The notes under the pieces: generated by a model | What the model was told of the DNA's origin: nothing | The model's database searches: none | Seen by the model: the letters and a program-made list of their open reading frames with translations, nothing else | In this document: one piece after another, positions 34,355 through 58,945 of the stretch | Position numbering within the stretch: position 1 is the first letter of the stretch | Layout of the letters: each line of letters starts with the position of its first letter | From: Amycolatopsis deserti | Lineage (GTDB): Bacteria > Actinomycetota > Actinomycetes > Mycobacteriales > Pseudonocardiaceae | NCBI RefSeq assembly: GCF_014653945.1 | Contig: NZ_BNAU01000002.1 | Span: 1,282,354-1,346,353, forward strand | Reading direction: 5' to 3' | Length of the DNA stretch: 64,000 nucleotides | Position numbers and translations under genes: made by a program

Positions 34355-34840
34355 CTAGTGCTTGGGTGCGGAGCCGGCCTGGTCGGCCAGCATGCGCAAG
34401 CCCGAGACGAGCCCGCCGATGAGGTCGCCCTCCTTGAAGGACGCCACCATGCTCATCACGGCCAGCTTCGCGCCGCGGTCGGGCAAGCGGCGGATCGCGT
34501 CGGAGCCCGTCACGATCTCCACCACCCGCTCGCCCGGGGACACCGCGATCAGCACGGCGTTGGCGGAGTTCGGCTCGATCCGCGCGTGCAGCTCTTCCGC
34601 GCGGGCCCGGCTCTCGGAGCCCAGCTCGCCGAGGTACACGCTGAAGTCGAGCCCGGTCTCCCGGCTCGCCAGCGTCAAGGCTTCGTCCAGACGGGCCAAC
34701 TGGACGGTGCTGAATGGGCTGGATGGAGCAGCGGGCTCGTACATCCGGGCCACCGAGCGGCGACCGGTCGCCGTAATGGCGACCCCGATCTCCAGCTCCT
34801 CGTCCGATCCTGGCTGTCGGGTCAGCTCACCAGCTGCCAC
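34355..34840 (-). CDS. DUF5130 (TPM-like) protein, Rv2468c-type
   Basis: A 161-residue protein from GTG 34840. It contains FSTVQLARLDEALTLASRET, LDFSVYLGELG, PNSANAVLIAVSPGERVVEI and TGSDAIRRLPDRGAKLAVMS. This is the compact alpha/beta pattern of TPM-like DUF5130 proteins, which have no signal or anchor. The function is unknown. The gene overlaps the end of the upstream small membrane protein gene by 14 nt, and a terminator follows. Its place next to pepN matches Rv2468c. Confidence 0.78.
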   Translation of the reverse strand: MAAGELTRQPGSDEELEIGVAITATGRRSVARMYEPAAPSSPFSTVQLARLDEALTLASRETGLDFSVYLGELGSESRARAEELHARIEPNSANAVLIAVSPGERVVEIVTGSDAIRRLPDRGAKLAVMSMVASFKEGDLIGGLVSGLRMLADQAGSAPKH

Positions 34841-35096
34841 GGGCTCCTCCTGCCGCCGTCACGCGCGCGTTCCCGCTCGCGTCCCTGTTCTCCACCGGTT
34901 CGCCGGAGTGCGTGTCGTGCACGGTCCCGATACCTTCCGGGTTGCCGCTCCACCACATCGGCGGGTACTCCCAGGCCTGGCCGGGCCGGTAGCGCGGCGT
35001 GCCGGTCAGCTTCGACCGCAGGGTGAGCACGCTGATCACCCCGTAGATCGCGGCCGGGATCAGCGCGAAGATCAGGATCGTCTCTCCGATGTTCAC
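34827..35096 (-). CDS. Small membrane protein with C-terminal WEYPPMWWSGNPEG motif
   Basis: An 89-residue protein from GTG 35096. It has an N-terminal hydrophobic helix (IGETILIFALIPAAIYGVIS), a basic loop, and then YRPGQAWEYPPMWWSGNPEG, a Trp/Pro-rich motif found in small actinobacterial membrane proteins of unknown role. It is translationally coupled to the DUF5130 gene. Long upstream in-frame extensions are rejected as non-coding. Confidence 0.65.
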   Translation of the reverse strand: MNIGETILIFALIPAAIYGVISVLTLRSKLTGTPRYRPGQAWEYPPMWWSGNPEGIGTVHDTHSGEPVENRDASGNARVTAAGGARGSW

Positions 35097-35369
35097 GCGT
35101 GAAGAGTAGCCCGACGAGCCCTGGACCGCCGAAGCCGGTCGCGACCGCTCGTCGCGTGGGGGCCGCCGTCCGCCGAGCGTAGCGACGCCGTTGGCGCGAT
35201 GGGCTGAAGAGCGGTCGGACGAAAGGTTGCAACTCAACGTACAGCCGGCCGCACCCGGCGCGATTGCCTTGTCCGGTGGCCCAGTTCCTCGTAGCTTTTT
35301 CACCTGTACGGGCCTTGCGCCCCGCTCCCCTTCCCAATGAGTAACGCACAGGTCCCTGGAGGACAGATC

Positions 35370-35657
35370 ATGTACCTGCTCCGTACCCTCGCTCAGACCA
35401 ACGACGACCACGCTCCGTCACTGATCGACACGGCGAACGGCTGCTCCACGCGGGGCACGCGTGTGACGCGTGGCACAAGGGTCACTGCCGGTACCCGAGT
35501 CACCCGCGGTACCCGCGTCACCAGGGGAACCCGCGTCACCGCCGGCACCCGCGTGACCCGCGGCACGCGAGTCACCCGTGGCACGCGAGTCACGATGGGC
35601 ACCCGCGTCACGCGGGGCACCCGAGTCACCCGCGGCACGCGCGTCACCGCCGCCTGA
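35370..35657 (+). CDS. Small protein made of eleven GTRVT[RAM] hexapeptide repeats
   Basis: A 95-residue protein with a GGAGGA ribosome site 6 nt before ATG 35370. Residues 1-28 are a non-repeated head (MYLLRTLAQTNDDHAPSLID, then TANGCSTR) with a single cysteine at 25. Residues 29-94 are eleven consecutive hexapeptides GTRVTx, with x = R (7), A (3) or M (1), then a final Ala. Codons for G, T, R and V differ from unit to unit at third positions while the GTRVT core is invariant. The protein is strongly basic and Thr-rich, with no membrane segment. No RiPP-modifying enzyme is adjacent. Possible roles are a RiPP-like precursor with repeated cores, a miniature beta-solenoid (V at i and T at i+4 fit left-handed beta-helix hexapeptides) or a nucleic-acid or wall binder. 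A complementary-strand frame is also open because wobble positions coincide. I do not recognise the family. Confidence 0.6.
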   Translation: MYLLRTLAQTNDDHAPSLIDTANGCSTRGTRVTRGTRVTAGTRVTRGTRVTRGTRVTAGTRVTRGTRVTRGTRVTMGTRVTRGTRVTRGTRVTAA

Positions 35658-35713
35658 GACCCGTCCCCGCCCGGAACTGACCCCGAACCACCACCAAGAC
35701 GAAGACGTCGGAA

Positions 35714-35742
35714 CGCCCCGGCTCACCACCACAGCCGGGGCG
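35714..35742. terminator. Hairpin between the repeat ORF and the HNH gene
   Basis: CGCCCCGGCT pairs with AGCCGGGGCG around a 9-nt loop. It lies 56 bp after the repeat ORF and 16 bp past the stop of the convergent HNH gene, a good place for a bidirectional terminator. No long T run is present. Confidence 0.65.
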
Positions 35743-35757
35743 CCGGTGTGCGCGCGA

Positions 35758-36270
35758 TCAGGCCGCCACGCCGAGGTAGGGCTTCCACAGCGGATCCGCG
35801 TCCCCGGAGTGCACGAGCAACCGCCAGTGCGGGCCCCGCGGCGCCGTCGGCACCACCCGCAACTGCCAGCCCAGCTCCTCCAGGAGCCGGTCGGCCTTGC
35901 GGCGGTTGCACTTCGCGCAACACGCCACGCAGTTCTGCCAGCTGTGCGGACCGCCCTTGCTGCGCGGCAGCACGTGGTCGATCGTCTCGGCCCGCCCGCC
36001 GCAGTACGCGCACTTGTAGCGGTCCCGGTGCATCAGCCCGGCCCGCGTCAGCGGCACCTGCGCCCGGTAGGGCACCCGCACGTAGGTCGACAACCGGATC
36101 ACCGACGGCACCGGCAGCGACAGCGTCGCCGCGTGCAACGTCAGGCCACCCGGGTCGCCGTGCACGACCTCCGCCTTCCCGCACATGACCAGCACCACAG
36201 CCCGCCGCAGCGGGAGCGCGGTCAGCGGTTCGAACGTGGCGTTGAGCAGCAGCACGCGCCTGCGGCCCAT
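35758..36270 (-). CDS. HNH endonuclease family protein, Rv2469c-type
   Basis: A 170-residue protein starting MGRRRVLLLNATFEPLTALP. The HNH fold has two zinc-binding cysteine pairs around the catalytic His: CAYCGGRAETIDHVLPRSKG then CCAKCNRRKADR. The DHV/PRSKGG and N-C-x-x-C parts are canonical. It may be a nuclease of unknown cellular role; the family is very widespread in actinobacteria and lies next to the DUF5130/pepN genes as here. The start at ATG 36270 has a weak ribosome site, and an in-frame extension up to about 36522 is open but of poor coding character. The region 36271-36628 otherwise shows no gene. Confidence 0.85.
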   Translation of the reverse strand: MGRRRVLLLNATFEPLTALPLRRAVVLVMCGKAEVVHGDPGGLTLHAATLSLPVPSVIRLSTYVRVPYRAQVPLTRAGLMHRDRYKCAYCGGRAETIDHVLPRSKGGPHSWQNCVACCAKCNRRKADRLLEELGWQLRVVPTAPRGPHWRLLVHSGDADPLWKPYLGVAA

Positions 36271-36628
36271 GGAAAAAGCCCCGGGGGTGGTCGGACCGGC
36301 CGGATCCCGCCCTCTACGCTGACCCGAGGGTCGGCTCACGCGGCCGCCTCTTGGGGGTGGCCCACTGGGCTGAGGTCCGCCGCCGGGCGGCCCCTGACCC
36401 TGATGAGCACACAGGGCTACCTCCGGCGCCTGCCCGCCCACCGCTTGGTCGGGGGCGCCGAGGGGGATCGGTTGTCGGTCTGGCACTCGACCACCTCCAC
36501 CGGTGCAGCCATAGTCGACCACAGATCACACCCGATGCGCACCTGTGTTAGAAGACGTGTCCTGTGAAATTCGTTCGACGTCTGCGTGACGACGGGCGAA
36601 AACGGCCAGAAAGGGATCCCCGAGCCCC

Positions 36629-45557: not shown

Positions 45558-48389
45558 TCAGCCGTCGCCGCGGTGGCGGCCGTTGCCTGGCTCGCTGCCG
45601 TTGCGCCCGTGGCCGTTGACCGGCCGCGGCTCGGACGACGATTGGTTGCCGAGCCGCTTCACGAGGGCCGCCGCGCTCGCGGTGCCCGCCTGGTGCTCGG
45701 CGAGCGCGCGGGCGAGCAGGTCGGCGAGTCCGGCGTCCTCGGGCAGGTCGTCGTCCGGCACGCCGGTCAGCTCGGTGCGGAACGGCTCGCCGAGGTCGTC
45801 GTCCTGCAGCACGGGCGCGGTCGTGAACGGCGTCTCCGACGTGCTGGTGCCGGTGGCCGGTTCGCTGTCCGTGTCCGAAAAGTCATCCCACGGCGCCAGC
45901 GACGGTGGCAGCCGCAGTCGAGGCAGCCAGTTGTCGATGACCGGCATGCTCGGCGCAGACCCGTTCTCCCCGCGAACGTCGGGCTCGGAAGCGCTGTCCG
46001 CCCGCGCAGCCGGAGCGGCGTCGGCACGGCTGACCGGCTCCGCCTCCGCGCTCAACCACGACTCACCGGAGGAGCCACCGTCGTCCCGGGCGGCGAACTC
46101 ACGGCTCGCCTCCTCGCGCTCGCGAAACTCCCGGCCCGCATCCCCGCGCCCGCCGAACTCCCGACCCGCTTCCTCACGCCCGTCGAACTCACGGCTCGCG
46201 CCCCCGCGCCCGGCAAGCTCACGGCTGGCGTCCTCGGGGGCAGCAGAACCCTGGTCGGCATCCGCGCGCCCGGCGAACTCGCGGGCAGCAGACTCCCGAC
46301 CGGCAGCGTCACGCGAGATGGATTCCCGGCTCGTGTCGTCGCGGCCAGCGGAGTCCTGTCCGGCGAAGTCCCTGCCCACGTCCTCGGGCACGGACTCGCC
46401 GCTCGTCTCCGCGCGCGTCGCGCTGTCGTGAGGCGTGTCGTCCTCCGCGCGGCGGCGTCCGCCGGCCTCGGGACGTCCCGGCTCGCCTGTTCCGGGCGCG
46501 CGGCGGCGACCGCCGCTCGCGCCGGTGCTGACGCCCAGCCTGTCCAGCACGCTTCGCGCCGCGACCGATCCGTGCTCCGAATCGTGCCGCGTCTTCCGGG
46601 ACGCCCGCGTATCGGCGCGCTCCGAGCGCGAAACCGCCACGGCCTCCGACGACACTTCGTCGCGCGACGAAACCTCGTCTGCCTTGTCTTCGGCCCGCCG
46701 ACGCCCCGCCGATCCCGCACGAGATCGATCCGACAGCGCCTTCAGAACCACGTCCGCGACCGGTTCGGACCGCCGGTACCGCACCACGTCGGACGGCGAC
46801 CCCGTCGCGGCATTCGCCCGCTCGGACCGTGACGCCACGCTCTCGTCCGCCGGCTTCGCGGATTCCCGCTGCTCGGGCCGTGAAGCCGTCGCGACTTCGT
46901 CCGAACGCGAAGCCCTACCCGGCTCCTGCGACCGGGATGCCGGACCGGTGTCGTTCGACCGTGAAGCCCGTACGTCTTCCACAGGCGCGGTCTTCGCGAC
47001 CTCCGCCGGCCGCTCGTCGACGGGTTCGGGCGCCAGCGACCAGCTCGGCCGAGCGCTCTGCGGCCGTGCCTGCTCCGCCGCCTCACGCGGCCGGGGCGTC
47101 TCCGCTTCCTCGCTCGAAGCCTCGGTGCTCGGCTCCCGGCTCGCCGGCACCGTCGGCTCAGGCACCGACAACGGCGCGACCGCCACCGAAGCCGTCGCGA
47201 CCTCGCTCGCCGGCACCGACCCCAGGACGTGGTCGAGATCGACATCGGCGTGCCCGTCGCCACCGAACTCGCCCGCCAGCAGACCGATCGCCTGACGCCG
47301 GGCCCGCGCGTGGATGTGCTCGGCGGCGCGCGCCAGCTGCAGGCACTCGATCGCCTCGGCGTAGCGGCCGAGGCGCTCCTCCACGTGCGCCAGCTCGGTC
47401 CACAGGCGCGCGGTCAGCGCGTGCAGCTCGTGCCGCTCGGTGGCGTGCACGGCGTCACGCAACATCCGAGCGGCCGCCTCCACGCTGCCGGAGGGCAGCA
47501 GGACCCGCGTGGCGATCGCCATCCGGAGCCACCCGGCCGGCGCGACGGACGCCGCACGGGCCGGCTCGTCCAGCACCGGCTGCGCCAAGTCCAGCGCGTT
47601 GGTGCCGTCCCCGCGGTCGAGCAGCGAGCAGACGAGCTGGAGCACCAGCCGGATCCGCACCACACCGCCGTCGTGCTGCGCGTCCTCCAACTGCTCGAGG
47701 AATCCCAGCCCCGTCCGCGCCGCGTCGGCCGCGCCGATGACGTCCCCGTGACGACGCCGGTGCGCCGACACCGCGACCCGCAGCAGCGACCGCGCCAGCA
47801 GCCGTCCGTCACCGTCGAGGTCGTCGTCCGCCCCGCACAGCCGGTCGGCCTCGGCGAGGGTCCGGTCGAGCTCCAGCTTGCGCCCGAACTGCGCCAGGCA
47901 CCCGACCAGCTGGCTGAGCGCCGCCGCCTTGCGCGCACCGCCGAAACCAGCCGCGTCCAGCACCGGCCGCAGCGCCGCGAGCCCGGTCAGGGGCGCGCCG
48001 ACACTGCGCGCACACACGGCGAGGTCGGTGCGCAACTGGGCCGCGAGCGTCGTCTGCCCCGTGTCCTCCGCGGCACGCAGCGCAGCCACGGCACGGCCCA
48101 CCGTCGGCGCCCGCAGACCGAGACGAACCCGCGCCGACACCGCGAGCCCCTCGCCACGGACCCACAGCTCCTCCGCACCGGCCGCCTCGGCCAGGGCAGC
48201 GGCCCGCTCACCGAGCACGAGCGCCAGCTCGGGCGCGCGCAGCTCGAAGTCGGCCGCCTGGCCGAGCAGCCGCTCGACCGCCGCGATCTCCGCGCTCCGG
48301 CCGCCGTCCTGCGAACGGGAACCGGATCGGCTGTGCTGGGTGGCTACCAAGGGGACTCCGCTTCCGTGTCGGCTCGAGCGTGCTAGCAC
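45558..48389 (-). CDS. Large TPR-like protein with long low-complexity charged tail
   Basis: A protein of 943 residues. Residues about 35-375 are Ala/Leu/Arg-rich helical pairs with TPR-like spacing (for example LAEADRLCGADD, LWTELAHVEERLGRYAEAIE). Residues about 390-800 are disordered and rich in Ser/Arg/Glu/Ala, with many ASRS and SRSE units, and then a run of [SG]REF repeats (SREF, GREFGGRGDAGREF, REREEASREF). The C terminus (about 800-943) is again more ordered (NWLPRLRLPPSLAPWDDFSD, AGLADLLARALAEHQAG). No enzymatic motif is seen. It starts 13 nt after the ettA stop, so it is in the same transcript. GTG 48389 is used, but TTG 48350 is possible. I do not recognise a named family. Confidence 0.7.
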   Translation of the reverse strand: MLARSSRHGSGVPLVATQHSRSGSRSQDGGRSAEIAAVERLLGQAADFELRAPELALVLGERAAALAEAAGAEELWVRGEGLAVSARVRLGLRAPTVGRAVAALRAAEDTGQTTLAAQLRTDLAVCARSVGAPLTGLAALRPVLDAAGFGGARKAAALSQLVGCLAQFGRKLELDRTLAEADRLCGADDDLDGDGRLLARSLLRVAVSAHRRRHGDVIGAADAARTGLGFLEQLEDAQHDGGVVRIRLVLQLVCSLLDRGDGTNALDLAQPVLDEPARAASVAPAGWLRMAIATRVLLPSGSVEAAARMLRDAVHATERHELHALTARLWTELAHVEERLGRYAEAIECLQLARAAEHIHARARRQAIGLLAGEFGGDGHADVDLDHVLGSVPASEVATASVAVAPLSVPEPTVPASREPSTEASSEEAETPRPREAAEQARPQSARPSWSLAPEPVDERPAEVAKTAPVEDVRASRSNDTGPASRSQEPGRASRSDEVATASRPEQRESAKPADESVASRSERANAATGSPSDVVRYRRSEPVADVVLKALSDRSRAGSAGRRRAEDKADEVSSRDEVSSEAVAVSRSERADTRASRKTRHDSEHGSVAARSVLDRLGVSTGASGGRRRAPGTGEPGRPEAGGRRRAEDDTPHDSATRAETSGESVPEDVGRDFAGQDSAGRDDTSRESISRDAAGRESAAREFAGRADADQGSAAPEDASRELAGRGGASREFDGREEAGREFGGRGDAGREFREREEASREFAARDDGGSSGESWLSAEAEPVSRADAAPAARADSASEPDVRGENGSAPSMPVIDNWLPRLRLPPSLAPWDDFSDTDSEPATGTSTSETPFTTAPVLQDDDLGEPFRTELTGVPDDDLPEDAGLADLLARALAEHQAGTASAAALVKRLGNQSSSEPRPVNGHGRNGSEPGNGRHRGDG

Positions 48390-50845: not shown

Positions 50846-52855
50846 CTAGGGGCGGGGCTTGCCCTGTTCTGCCATCTGCTTGAGCATCGCGTTGTAGGCC
50901 GCCAGCTCCTGGTCGCCGCTGGCCTCCTCCCGGCGGTCCTTCCGCTTCGCCTCACGCGCGTCCGCCCGCGACCACTGCACGAGCAACGCGATCAGCACCA
51001 GCAGCACCGGAACCTCGCCGGAGGCCCACGCGATACCGCCGCCGAGCCGCTGGTCCGCCAGCAGGTCGGACACCCACGGCAGGTGCAGCGCGCGGTAGAA
51101 GTTGTCGCCGATGATCGTCTGCTTCGACATCAGGATCACGCCGAAGAAGGCGTGGAACGGCATGGCGGCGAACATCATCCCGAGGCGGCCGAGGTGCGGC
51201 AGCCGCCGCGGAGCCTGGTCGACGCCGATCACCGGCCAGTAGAAGACGTACCCGGCGAGGAGGAAGTGGGCGTTCATCAGAAGGTGTGCCCAGTGGTAGT
51301 TCAGCGCCGCGTCGAACAGGCCGGAGAAGTACAGCGCGTAGAACGAGCCGACGAACAAGGCCAGCGCGACGATCGGATGGGTGAGCACGCGCGCCACCGG
51401 TGAGTGCACCGCAGCCAGCAGCCACTCGCGCGGCCCCGGCGGGGCGTCCCGGCCCGCCACCGGCAACGCCCGCATCGCGAGCGTCACCGGCCCGCCCAGG
51501 ACGAACAGCACCGGGGCGATCATCGACAGGAGCATGTGACTGCCCATGTGCACGCTGAACATCGCCGGCGAGTAGCGCCCGATGCCCGACGACGTGGCGA
51601 TCAGCAGCACGAAGCACCCGGCGAGCCACGCCACCGTCCGCCCCACCGGCCACTCGACGCCGTTGCGCCGCAGCCGCCGCAGACCCGCCAGGTACAGCGC
51701 GGCCAGCACGATCGCCGCCGTGCCGTAGACCAGGTCGAAGCGCCAGTCGAACAGCAGCCGCGGCAGGGTCGGCGCGCCGGGCAGGTCGTAGCCGATGAGC
51801 AGTTCGGTCGTCGACGGCTGTACGGCTTCCTGCGGCGGCGGGGTGCGCCCCAGCGCGGTGGCGATGCCGATCGTGACGAACATGATCAGCACCTCGACCG
51901 CGGCCAGTCGCAGCAACTGCCCCCCACCCTGGCCGTCGACCACTGCGCGCACCCCGCGGCTGCGCTGCTGCTGGCCGAACACGCCGAGCACCAGCAACGC
52001 GACGATCTTCGCCACGACGAGCAGGCCGTACTCGGTGGTGAGCAGGTCGGACAGGGGCAGCCGGACCAGCGCGTTGATCACGCCGGAGAGGGCCATCACG
52101 ATCCAGCAGACCAGCGCGAGCCGGGAGAAACGCCTCGCCGCGAGCGAGAGGTGCTCGCCGCGCCGCCAGCCGAGCGCGAGCAGCGCCACCAGGCCGCCGA
52201 CCCACAGTGACGCGGCGATCAGGTGGTAGAGCAGGCTGTTCGTGGCGAGGTCGTGCGAGCCGCCGCTGGCCGAGTGGCCGGTCACGGCGACCGGGACGAG
52301 CCCGATGACGGACAGCCCGAACAGCACCGCGGTCCAGCCCCAGGACAGCGCGAGACGGCAGCCGAGGACCAGCACGAGCGCGATCGCCGCCGTCCACAGC
52401 CAAGCCTTGGGCTGCTCGATCGCATCCACCAGGTCCAGCAGGACCTGCGGTGAGAACAACTCGGTGACCGGCTTGCCCGCCGCGTCCGCCGCACTGAACA
52501 GGACCGAAGCGAGCGCGGCGAAGAACCACACCCACGCGGCGATCCCCGCGGCACGCAGAGCCGCGTACCCGTCTCGGGCCAGCACGCCGGACTTCTGCGG
52601 CGGCACCAGGAACGTCGCGAGCAGCAGGGACCCCACGCACACGACCGACGCCGCGTCGGCGAGCACCCGGACCACGCCGACGCCGTACTGGGTGACAAGG
52701 CCGGGCTCGGGCAGGCCGGCGATCTGGTAGGTGGCCCCGCCCGACAGCGCGAGCAGCGCGACGGCCACCACCGCCGCCAGCAACCCGCACACCAGGAGCA
52801 GCGGGAGGACGCTCACCCGGCGCCGGGTCGCGGGCTCGGAAACTTCGGAGGGCAC
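50846..52855 (-). CDS. CopD-CtaG fusion membrane protein (cytochrome c oxidase assembly/copper)
   Basis: About 669 residues with many transmembrane helices. The N-terminal half (about 20-330) resembles the CopD copper-resistance domain (LYHLIAASLWVGGLVALLAL is the signature). The C-terminal half (about 350-660) is a caa3_CtaG-type cytochrome oxidase assembly domain with histidines in FSVHMGSHMLLSMIAPVLF, HWAHLLMNAHF and AMPFHAFFGVILMSKQT. It probably moves copper across the membrane and delivers it to the CuB or CuA site of the terminal oxidase. GTG 52855 is chosen; a TTG at 52879 would overlap the MFS gene stop. It directly follows that MFS gene. Confidence 0.82.
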   Translation of the reverse strand: MPSEVSEPATRRRVSVLPLLLVCGLLAAVVAVALLALSGGATYQIAGLPEPGLVTQYGVGVVRVLADAASVVCVGSLLLATFLVPPQKSGVLARDGYAALRAAGIAAWVWFFAALASVLFSAADAAGKPVTELFSPQVLLDLVDAIEQPKAWLWTAAIALVLVLGCRLALSWGWTAVLFGLSVIGLVPVAVTGHSASGGSHDLATNSLLYHLIAASLWVGGLVALLALGWRRGEHLSLAARRFSRLALVCWIVMALSGVINALVRLPLSDLLTTEYGLLVVAKIVALLVLGVFGQQQRSRGVRAVVDGQGGGQLLRLAAVEVLIMFVTIGIATALGRTPPPQEAVQPSTTELLIGYDLPGAPTLPRLLFDWRFDLVYGTAAIVLAALYLAGLRRLRRNGVEWPVGRTVAWLAGCFVLLIATSSGIGRYSPAMFSVHMGSHMLLSMIAPVLFVLGGPVTLAMRALPVAGRDAPPGPREWLLAAVHSPVARVLTHPIVALALFVGSFYALYFSGLFDAALNYHWAHLLMNAHFLLAGYVFYWPVIGVDQAPRRLPHLGRLGMMFAAMPFHAFFGVILMSKQTIIGDNFYRALHLPWVSDLLADQRLGGGIAWASGEVPVLLVLIALLVQWSRADAREAKRKDRREEASGDQELAAYNAMLKQMAEQGKPRP

Positions 52856-52875
52856 ACGTCGAGGGTAGGCCCGGC

Positions 52876-54072
52876 TCAAACGGGGAGTTCGGCAGCGGTC
52901 CGTTCACGGTGACCTGCGCGACTCGCGCCGGCCGCGGCCGGGGCGATGAGCGCCGCGAGAACCGCTACCAGCACGAACGAAGCGGACAGGGAGGTCAGCT
53001 GGGCGATGCCGCCGATCAGCGGCGGACCGGCCAGGAACCCGGTATAAGCGACGGTGGTGACGAACGCGATCTCCCGTTCCCCGCCGCTGCCGTCCGCTCG
53101 CTTGCCCGCCTCACCGGCCAGGCTGAGCGCGACCGGGAAGGCGGCGGCCAGACCCATTCCGGCCAGGACGAACCCGGCGAACGCCAGCGTGGCGACCGGG
53201 ACCAGCGCGGACATCAGCAGTCCCGCTCCGGCCACGACCGCGCCGATCGCGAGGGTGCGGGTGGCCCCGAGTCGGCGCTGCACCCACGCGCTTGCCAGCC
53301 GGGTCACAGCCATGGCCAGCGAGAACGCGGTGAAGGCCAGCGCCGCGGCGCCCTGACCCGCGCCGTGCTCGGTGACCAGCAGCAGCGCGGACCAGTCGGA
53401 GCTGGCGCCTTCGGCCATCGCGGAACACAACGGCACCGCGGCCAGCAGCCACAGCACCGGCCGGCGGGTGGGCGCCGTGGTCGCCGCGCGTGCGGGCCGC
53501 TCGGACCGGGGCACCGCCCGCGGCAGGCCGGGGTAGACGACCAGCATCACGGCCGCGGTCACGATGGCGGCCACGAGGAAGTGCCGCTCCGGCGACCAGT
53601 GCTGTGCCGCGGCGAGCCCGGCCGCCGCCGACGCGACCAGGCCGCCGAAGCTGAACCCCGCGTGGAAGACCGGCATGATCGCCTTGCCGGTGCGCCGCTC
53701 GACGCTGACACCGCCGATGTTCATCGCCACGTCCAGCCCGCCGTTGGCGAACCCGAGGCCGAACAGGGCGACCGCGAGCCACAGCACCGAACCGGCGAGC
53801 CCGGTCAGCGGCAGCACGACGCAGGACACCAGCGTCGCGGTGAGCATGACGGCGCGCGCCCCGAAGCGCTCCGACAGCCGGCCGGACAGCGGAGCCGCCA
53901 GGAGGAGCCCCGCGGTGCCGCCGAGCAACGCCAGGCCCAGCGCGCCCGGACTGGCGCCGACCTGCTCGGCGAGGGCGGGCACACGCGGCGCCCACGACCC
54001 GTACACCGCGCCGTTGAGCGCGAAGACCACGAACACCGCTACTCGATCGCTGACCCGAATCACCCGTCCCAC
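52876..54072 (-). CDS. MFS transporter (YbjJ-like)
   Basis: A 398-residue transporter from GTG 54072 with twelve hydrophobic segments. It has YGSWAPRVPALAEQVGASPG in the first loop, a basic loop LSGRLSERFGARAV between TM2 and TM3, and FANGGLDVAMNIGGVSVERR, which is typical of the YbjJ/fucose-permease-like subgroup. The cargo may be a sugar or drug. It is divergent from a LacI regulator with a short operator-like core between, so sugar-responsive control is likely. The promoter is close enough that the message may be leaderless. Confidence 0.8.
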   Translation of the reverse strand: MGRVIRVSDRVAVFVVFALNGAVYGSWAPRVPALAEQVGASPGALGLALLGGTAGLLLAAPLSGRLSERFGARAVMLTATLVSCVVLPLTGLAGSVLWLAVALFGLGFANGGLDVAMNIGGVSVERRTGKAIMPVFHAGFSFGGLVASAAAGLAAAQHWSPERHFLVAAIVTAAVMLVVYPGLPRAVPRSERPARAATTAPTRRPVLWLLAAVPLCSAMAEGASSDWSALLLVTEHGAGQGAAALAFTAFSLAMAVTRLASAWVQRRLGATRTLAIGAVVAGAGLLMSALVPVATLAFAGFVLAGMGLAAAFPVALSLAGEAGKRADGSGGEREIAFVTTVAYTGFLAGPPLIGGIAQLTSLSASFVLVAVLAALIAPAAAGASRAGHRERTAAELPV

Positions 54073-58428: not shown

Positions 58429-58753
58429 GGCGAAAACCCTACGACAGGAAGGAGGATCGAGCATCGCACCACGATCTGACCGCCTCCACGCCGCGACAAC
58501 CGGGGCGGCTTCGCGCCGCGCACAGGCCGGACGCCCGGCCACGCCATGAACACCGGGCGGGCGCGCACCCTGCCCGCGCCACCCCTGGCAGCAACGCGAC
58601 CAGCGCCACCCCGTCCTTGAGACGACCGGGCCCCGCGCCCCCTCCCCTTGGACAACGCGACCCGCGCCACGCCGTCCCTGGGCCGACACGACGCTAGCCG
58701 CGCCTGACCGCTGCGCTCAGGCAGGGGCGCGCCGGCCGCAAGGCTCTGCGTGG

Positions 58754-58945
58754 GGTCAGGCTCCGGCTGCGCGGGCACGCCGGCCGTCGGCCCCCACGCC
58801 GGGTCAGGCTCCGGCTGCGCAGGCACGCTCGCCCTCGGCCTCCGCGTCCGGTCAGGCTCCGGCTGCGCGGGTGCGTCGGGTGTCGGCCTTCGCGTCCGGT
58901 CGGGCTTCGGCTGGGCGGCCGTACGCGCGGCCGTCGTTGCTGCGC
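58754..58945. repeat. Tandem repeat, 48-bp unit, four copies
   Basis: The motif GGTCAGGCTCCGGCTGCGC recurs at 58754, 58802, 58850 and (diverged, GGTCGGGCTTCGGCTGGGC) 58898, exactly 48 bp apart. The last two copies lie within the 3' end of the DUF2087 gene, so the repeat has grown across or from its C-terminal codons (16-residue period). Confidence 0.85.

Follow-up and report, generated by a model that had tools for sequence, protein, structure and literature searches.

Pentapeptide arrays behind a nearly invariant promoter element at the ctaJ-HNH locus of Pseudonocardiaceae

Several described systems rest on a short peptide unit repeated along the chain or on a short signal at its end. Docking arrays usually tolerate variants of their motif. 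Multi-copy precursors are represented by alpha-factor and the Phr-type precursors, and hexapeptide-repeat proteins of the LpxD/DapD class form left-handed beta-helices. In Streptomyces, the terminal double alanine of ClgR, Lon and sigma-AntA is described in a review as a ClpP degradation signal (PMC9775585). Here, a repeat gene of Amycolatopsis deserti is compared with these systems. It lies in a stretch of 64,000 nucleotides of contig NZ_BNAU01000002.1 (the window) and belongs to a family that none of the searched libraries covers and on which our searches found no paper. The window protein's matches in Pfam and NCBIfam stayed under the curated cut-offs; its single match in PHROGs had E 0.097, and PADLOC gave none at E<=0.01. 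The literature search, with most subscription journals outside its coverage, found nothing on this family; papers on GTRVT and SVRIT were unrelated, as judged by title and the beginning of the abstract.

The repeat gene and its locus

The gene (35370..35657, forward strand) encodes a protein of 95 amino acids. A head of 28 residues (residues 1-28, 35370..35453), weakly constrained and different between genera, is followed by eleven GTRVT units with single R, A or M residues between them (35454..35648), and the chain ends in GTRVTAA. The C-terminal Ala-Ala (35649..35654) is a short form of the tail ending in DYALAA, DFALAA and similar sequences in many relatives. The sixth residues of the units are, in order, R, A, R, R, A, R, R, M, R, R and A, and the eleven units have eleven different DNA spellings. 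An alternative upstream ATG at 35337, with the frame open, would yield 106 amino acids; the start at 35370 is preferred because of the position of the Shine-Dalgarno sequence GGAGGA (35358..35363, forward strand), of which GGAGG is the consensus in an alignment of 33 genes. No signal peptide was apparent by eye. The coordinates, length, head, unit number and ribosome site given by an earlier, sequence-only reading were all confirmed. Elsewhere in the window, tandem repeats were seen at 46091-46236 and 58725-58918 (periods of 30/60 and 48 bases, respectively), and the region 52001-54000 has a strong local AT skew of 0.358, whereas no other 2-kb bin of the window exceeds 0.166 in absolute value.

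The divergent neighbour (34827..35096, reverse strand, start predicted) is ctaJ, encoding a subunit of aa3-type cytochrome oxidase (NCBIfam NF050118, 97.4 bits, cut-off 43), and the convergent neighbour (35758..36270, reverse strand, start predicted) is an HNH endonuclease-like gene (Pfam HNH_5 and HNH). A GC-rich hairpin between the two convergent genes (35714..35742, forward strand) may, by its fold, be a terminator. A leader or attenuator of a downstream operon is unlikely, as the next gene is convergent and the hairpin lies between. Nor did a role in a known defence system emerge: the repeat protein had no PADLOC match, and the HNH gene matched over its HNH domain only.

The object proved larger than the single gene of the earlier reading, which belongs to a gene family of Pseudonocardiaceae with a shared locus (ctaJ, repeat gene, HNH). 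Its members were found through genome searches rather than by plain protein search, which returned, among 5.8 billion proteins, one match to the window protein below E 0.001 (P0001, 2.4e-4). The repeat gene was present in 19 of 19 Amycolatopsis genomes searched, the source genome included. Overall, the window protein matched at E<=0.001 in 55 of 100 genomes, again with its own, many of the weaker matches, including those outside the family Pseudonocardiaceae, being of low identity and having the look of chance low-complexity hits. Among the 38 stretches fetched, 32 contained the gene, each time flanked by divergent ctaJ and convergent HNH; the remaining six, with none of the sought genes, were chance regions. 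When the window's own genes were sought in the relatives' loci, all 32 family loci had ctaJ, DUF5130, HNH, mscS and globin genes, and 29 of them had pepN. In a further set of 15 loci around HNH the repeat gene was present in eight, while in five ctaJ and HNH lay 84-163 bases apart with no such gene, and two had no detectable ctaJ; a sixteenth genome in this search gave no HNH match. Its absence from 5 of 15 loci indicates that the repeat gene is dispensable in some genera. As judged from genome matches, it is carried by most of the 46 sampled genera of Pseudonocardiaceae. No match indicating a mobile or phage origin was obtained with P0014 (phages and plasmids), the window protein and P0034 (plasmids) or P0032 (phages), in BLAST searches whose low-complexity filter may hide matches.

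Promoter element and selection on the unit

A sigma-70-type promoter precedes the gene, with the -35 hexamer TTGTCC (35269..35274) and, 17 bases past it, the -10 hexamer TAGCTT (35292..35297), both on the forward strand. Abutting the -10 hexamer is the nearly invariant element TTTCACCTGTACGGGCCTTGCG (35298..35319, forward strand), which is expected to cover the predicted transcription start, placed at about 35303-35306, and the first transcribed bases. The same arrangement holds for the family set of 131 unique proteins, chosen by the upstream element and at least two units. The 22-base element TTTCACCTGTACGGnCCTTGCG abuts the -10 hexamer in the family, and the pattern TTG[TAC]-N17-TAnnnT was found in 124 of 131 genes, compared with a mean of 0.56 and a maximum of 3 in shuffled sequences. 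The distance from the end of the element to the ATG is 49-53 bases in 128 of the 131 genes; in the other three it is 31. Positions 2-8 of the element are identical in 131/131, a figure to be read with the choice of these genes by the element itself. Another conserved block, CGAAAGGTTGCAACTCAACGTAC (35220-35242 in the window), lies upstream of the promoter and perhaps belongs to ctaJ.

A scan of GTDB species genomes for the exact element revealed 83 contigs, all with the repeat gene directly downstream; both neighbours were found on 71 of them, and one of the two within the examined DNA on the other 12. By NCBI taxonomy, 82 contigs are named for genera placed in Pseudonocardiaceae. The one labelled Rhodococcus (L140, JOAA01000003.1, Rhodococcus rhodnii NRRL B-16535) has aligned stretches up to 90-94% identical to Kibdelosporangium contigs (L108, L147). 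It probably carries a wrong label or stems from a mixed culture, so that it cannot be taken as a sign of the gene beyond Pseudonocardiaceae. With up to three mismatches the element was found in 213 of 297 genomes of the family and in 36 of 46 genera, and since the reversed control matched in about 30 of 297, some of the 213 are chance sites. No repeat gene follows the sites of L174 and L204, the former being the only listed site of genus g42; conversely, members with a more diverged element occur in g17, g24, g33 and g40, genera with no listed match. At the order level the element was present in 24 of 29 genomes of the family, compared with 2 of 171 genomes of other families, with 3 mismatches each. 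The window genome contains a single site, with no other at up to three mismatches. A regulon was also sought there with the 14-base core of the element and rejected, as 12 sites were found at up to two mismatches, compared with 19 for the reversed control.

The units are conserved at the level of the peptide. The sequence-only reading had cautioned that the wobble positions of the antisense frame coincide with those of the sense frame, giving an equally regular TRVPRV repeat. The caution was right: the antisense stretch is open over at least 90% of its length in 108 of 131 genes. The arginine codons now settle the question for the sense strand and rule out an antisense gene. In 204 of 1696 GTRVT units arginine is encoded by AGG or AGA, which the antisense frame would read as leucine; in the repeats 212 AGR codons are kept for arginine, and sense leucine at the third position of the unit was found in none of 2078 unit positions. 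These observations identify the sense strand as the selected one. Within the genus (9 members, 36 pairs) the repeats have a mean dN of 0.043 and a mean dS of 0.671, and 51 of their 57 varying codons change synonymously only, so that the units are under strong purifying selection. The head, with a mean dN of 0.140 and a mean dS of 0.187 (35 usable pairs of 36), is weakly constrained, and hence it is the units that matter. Recent slippage is ruled out by the diversity of DNA spellings of the units. The earlier suggestion of selection on the peptide rather than slippage is thus borne out by dN/dS, spelling diversity and arginine codons together.

The conservation of the 5' region raises the question whether RNA or DNA is the functional product, e.g., a regulatory RNA that starts with the invariant element, with the repeat frame secondary. 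The element is indeed more conserved than the head, and consensus folding of the 5' region over 115 sequences gives -0.41 kcal/mol, below the column-shuffled values (-0.02, sd 0.13), but the fold comprises two base pairs only. The synonymous-only change of repeat codons and the retained AGR codons argue against this explanation, and Rfam gave no match at E<=1 over 34500-36500; we consider it highly improbable.

Across the 131 proteins the consensus of the unit is [GS][TVI]R[VI][TSN]. The 2065 units comprise GTRVT (1696), SVRIT (143), GVRIS (98), GVRVT (51), GTRIT (45), GIRVN (20), GVRVN (7) and five others; with the third position left open, arginine occupies it in 2065 of 2078. A single version of the unit, spelled in many synonymous ways, is used in 124 of 131 genes, which indicates that its sameness is kept at the peptide level. 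In the GTRVT genes 1696 of 1699 units are identical, with 14.1 distinct DNA spellings among 17.3 units on average. The number of units varies from 2 to 60 per gene, and the heads show little similarity between genera.

Net charge is not conserved either: the median per residue is +0.15 in GTRVT genes and -0.01 in SVRIT genes. A polybasic peptide binding nucleic acid or membranes, which had been offered as one model, would suit the window protein, with arginine in each unit and at 7 of 11 sixth positions. The near-neutral SVRIT genes, however, have the same kind of element, and the only one of them with the gap read (L207) sits at the same ctaJ-HNH locus; the charge values leave this model unsupported across the family, and very little weight can be given to it.

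Spacing, predicted structure and the C-terminal tail

The window protein, with its six-residue period, resembles a hexapeptide-repeat protein, and a miniature left-handed beta-helix had been suggested for it. More generally, the units could assemble by themselves, stacked as a beta-solenoid or as a cross-beta filament. The unit has the pattern of an amphipathic strand, and T, S or N at its fifth position would suit ladders. AlphaFold2 places a strand at nearly every unit with medium confidence. For the window protein (34 sequences) the head scored mostly below 50 and the repeat blocks 67-81, with pTM 0.51; for L198, an SVRIT protein judged Lentzea-like because it resembles P0012 (10 sequences), the mean was 76.2, blocks were mostly at 77-85, and pTM was 0.76. 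A solenoid may be read from this predicted strand pattern. There is also some sub-threshold likeness to hexapeptide-type enzymes: the best two PDB sequence matches of the window protein (E 0.26 and 0.75) are of the left-handed beta-helix fold class, and NCBIfam hexapeptide families scored up to 17.6 bits, far below the cut-offs of 160.8-440, with no such match in Pfam.

Several observations speak against such an assembly. Unit starts are six residues apart in 1302 of 1934 cases and 7-40 residues apart in the remainder; six-residue spacing throughout is found in 61 of 131 genes, and the smallest members have three or four units within 31-55 residues. With Foldseek, neither AlphaFold2 model had a PDB match at E<=0.001, and only one of the five models of L198 was confident (76, 64, 47, 44, 42). 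A filament would hardly be expected to carry an ALAA tail. Moreover, AlphaFold2 gives confident but unrealistic beta-solenoids for perfect repeats, with high pLDDT in 32 of 78 random perfect-repeat sequences, as one study reports (PMC11795689); because of this bias the repeat models count for little. The miniature left-handed beta-helix is therefore unsupported as a common fold, and one beta-helix or solenoid shared by the family is unlikely, given the free spacing and the smallest members. Self-assembly in general we rate as quite unlikely.

The C-terminus is the other recurrent feature. An Ala-Ala end is present in 73 of 131 family proteins, LAA in 47 and [DE][FYL]xLAA in 39, the ends seen including SDYALAA, SDFALAA, NDFSLAA and SEYALAA, as well as ALAA straight after the last unit. 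These ends resemble the tmRNA tag, as an SsrA-like degron would: tags end in FALAA in all 11 genomes read (the source genome and ten relatives), the source genome's own tag being AKTNSQRDFALAA. The window protein itself ends in VTAA and shares only AA with the tag. In the window, 3 of 43 likely genes, picked mechanically, end in AA, and since one of them is the neighbouring HNH gene, an AA end alone is weak evidence. The tail is common in the family and not universal: 58 of 131 proteins, comprising 11 of the 13 GVRIS genes and 47 others, have no AA end. Where it occurs, the tmRNA-like end suggests a chain meant to be short-lived.

The explanation we prefer, tentatively and as falling a little short of an even chance, is that the pentapeptide chain offers one partner protein a multivalent series of docking motifs and is removed by ClpXP via the tmRNA-tag-like end. 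A short motif is kept while the spacers are free in length and sequence and the number of copies varies, as in linear-motif arrays. Each unit would form an extended strand that turns positions 2 and 4 to one side and arginine to the opposite side, and the partner would bind it edge-on; many units per chain could raise avidity or gather several copies of the partner. ClpXP is predicted to remove the protein quickly through its tail, which would hold the level of the array low, so that it would matter only during its synthesis. As nearly all genes use a single version of the unit and the versions differ between genera, the groove of the partner has probably changed together with the unit. Units that are kept while head, spacers, number and charge are free are what a docking array would show; they fit less well with a fixed fold, with a polybasic peptide or with a leader-dependent precursor. 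The fixed locus, with ctaJ and HNH flanks in all family loci fetched, also speaks for the array. Against it stand the near-identity of GTRVT units, a sameness which also suits a peptide product, and the ordered rather than disordered repeats of the AlphaFold2 models. The proteins with no AA end count against ClpXP removal, and ClpXP could not act on the SVRIT arrays with signal-peptide-like starts described below.

SVRIT arrays elsewhere and comparison with described systems

A profile search for relatives was made, and the best 7990 candidates were scored. Among these there were short SVRIT proteins with starts that look by eye like signal peptides, named hypothetical or uncharacterised, in Kribbella (P0032, P0036), Glycomyces (P0025, P0026) and Kibdelosporangium persicum (P0047). 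They resemble the family in the SVRIT unit repeated with variable spacers and differ from it in the signal-peptide-like start and in ends such as NRDF or DDKIW. The Glycomyces proteins P0025, P0026, P0034 and P0046 and the two from Kribbella, all secreted-looking, combine SVRIT with NRDF/NREF and FTPPY or with DDKIW. Of eight Kibdelosporangium genomes searched, four match the secreted-looking type; its locus there is a different one, and in one genome the match contains a stop. In Kibdelosporangium (L236-L239) its neighbourhood includes, as judged by eye, an apparent serine hydrolase gene and, for L236 and L237, apparent two-component regulators. The arrays elsewhere may share descent with the ctaJ-HNH gene; five residues can also converge.

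The same candidates included SVRIT proteins with an STDW or TTDW head and no such start, mostly metagenomic, one of them ending in PDYALAA. Five of these (P0014, P0015, P0017, P0027, P0041), with SVRIT units, ends such as LAA or NRDF and no apparent signal peptide, possibly form a second group. Searches for their wider spread gave no match for P0017 in 394 genomes of the class (E<=1e-6) or for A1 in 396 genomes of the phylum (E<=1e-4), absences which show little, as no positive control matched. P0032 had two weak matches in the 394 class genomes at E<=0.001, which were not counted as spread. Two proteins, P0012 from Lentzea and P0014, carry the name DUF2345 in public sources. With the Pfam model (PF10106), P0012, so named in NCBI, scored 51.2 bits against a cut-off of 30.7, whereas P0014 remained under the cut-off and the window protein had no match. 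Probably, the DUF2345 naming of pentapeptide arrays is a false assignment reflecting likeness of repeated strands and not descent.

The secreted-looking arrays bear on the strongest alternative, i.e., a multi-copy precursor in which each unit is the core of an excised and perhaps modified peptide, a signal or a natural product, by analogy with known precursors of this kind. It is the strongest because of the identical copies and the arrays with signal-peptide-like starts; a five-residue core with free spacers would suit it as well. The repeated-core precursor of the sequence-only reading thus gains from these SVRIT arrays and loses in other respects. The head, the would-be leader, is little constrained and not a conserved one, no known maturation enzyme or exporter was found at the locus among the neighbours ctaJ, DUF5130, HNH, mscS, globin and pepN, and the window protein appears by eye to have no signal peptide. 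The one-residue spacers, often arginine, offer no obvious cleavage rule to free the unit. On balance, a precursor seems unlikely.

If the docking array is correct, a broader and somewhat doubtful proposal can be made, namely a new bacterial protein class: a stand-alone docking chain timed by ClpXP, under one nearly invariant promoter in most Pseudonocardiaceae, its unit changing with the groove of the partner by genus, and with secreted counterparts in other actinomycete families. Pseudonocardiaceae include many antibiotic producers, and most of their sampled genera have the gene, whose start element is almost invariant and whose peptide unit stays fixed while codons drift freely. Versions such as GTRVT, SVRIT, GVRIS and GIRVN are ready bait and specificity controls for the partner and for co-evolution, and the tail gives a clean prediction on regulated proteolysis.

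Among described systems, hexapeptide-repeat left-handed beta-helix proteins of the LpxD/DapD class share with the window protein the six-residue period and a weak profile likeness, but the period is not kept across the family and the NCBIfam scores are far under cut-off. Tandem arrays of short linear motifs, for example the heptad tail of RNA polymerase II, are closer in organization: a flexible chain bears numerous identical short motifs, their number variable between species and the motif kept while codons drift. There is no sequence relation to the heptad tail, and the repeat protein is bacterial, stands alone with no catalytic body, and has a tmRNA-tag-like end. In that end it resembles the Streptomyces ClpP substrates ClgR, Lon, sigma-AntA and also PopR, with their C-terminal AA or LAA (PMC9775585); these are regulators or a protease, whereas the body of the repeat protein is a pentapeptide array, and its degradation is a prediction.
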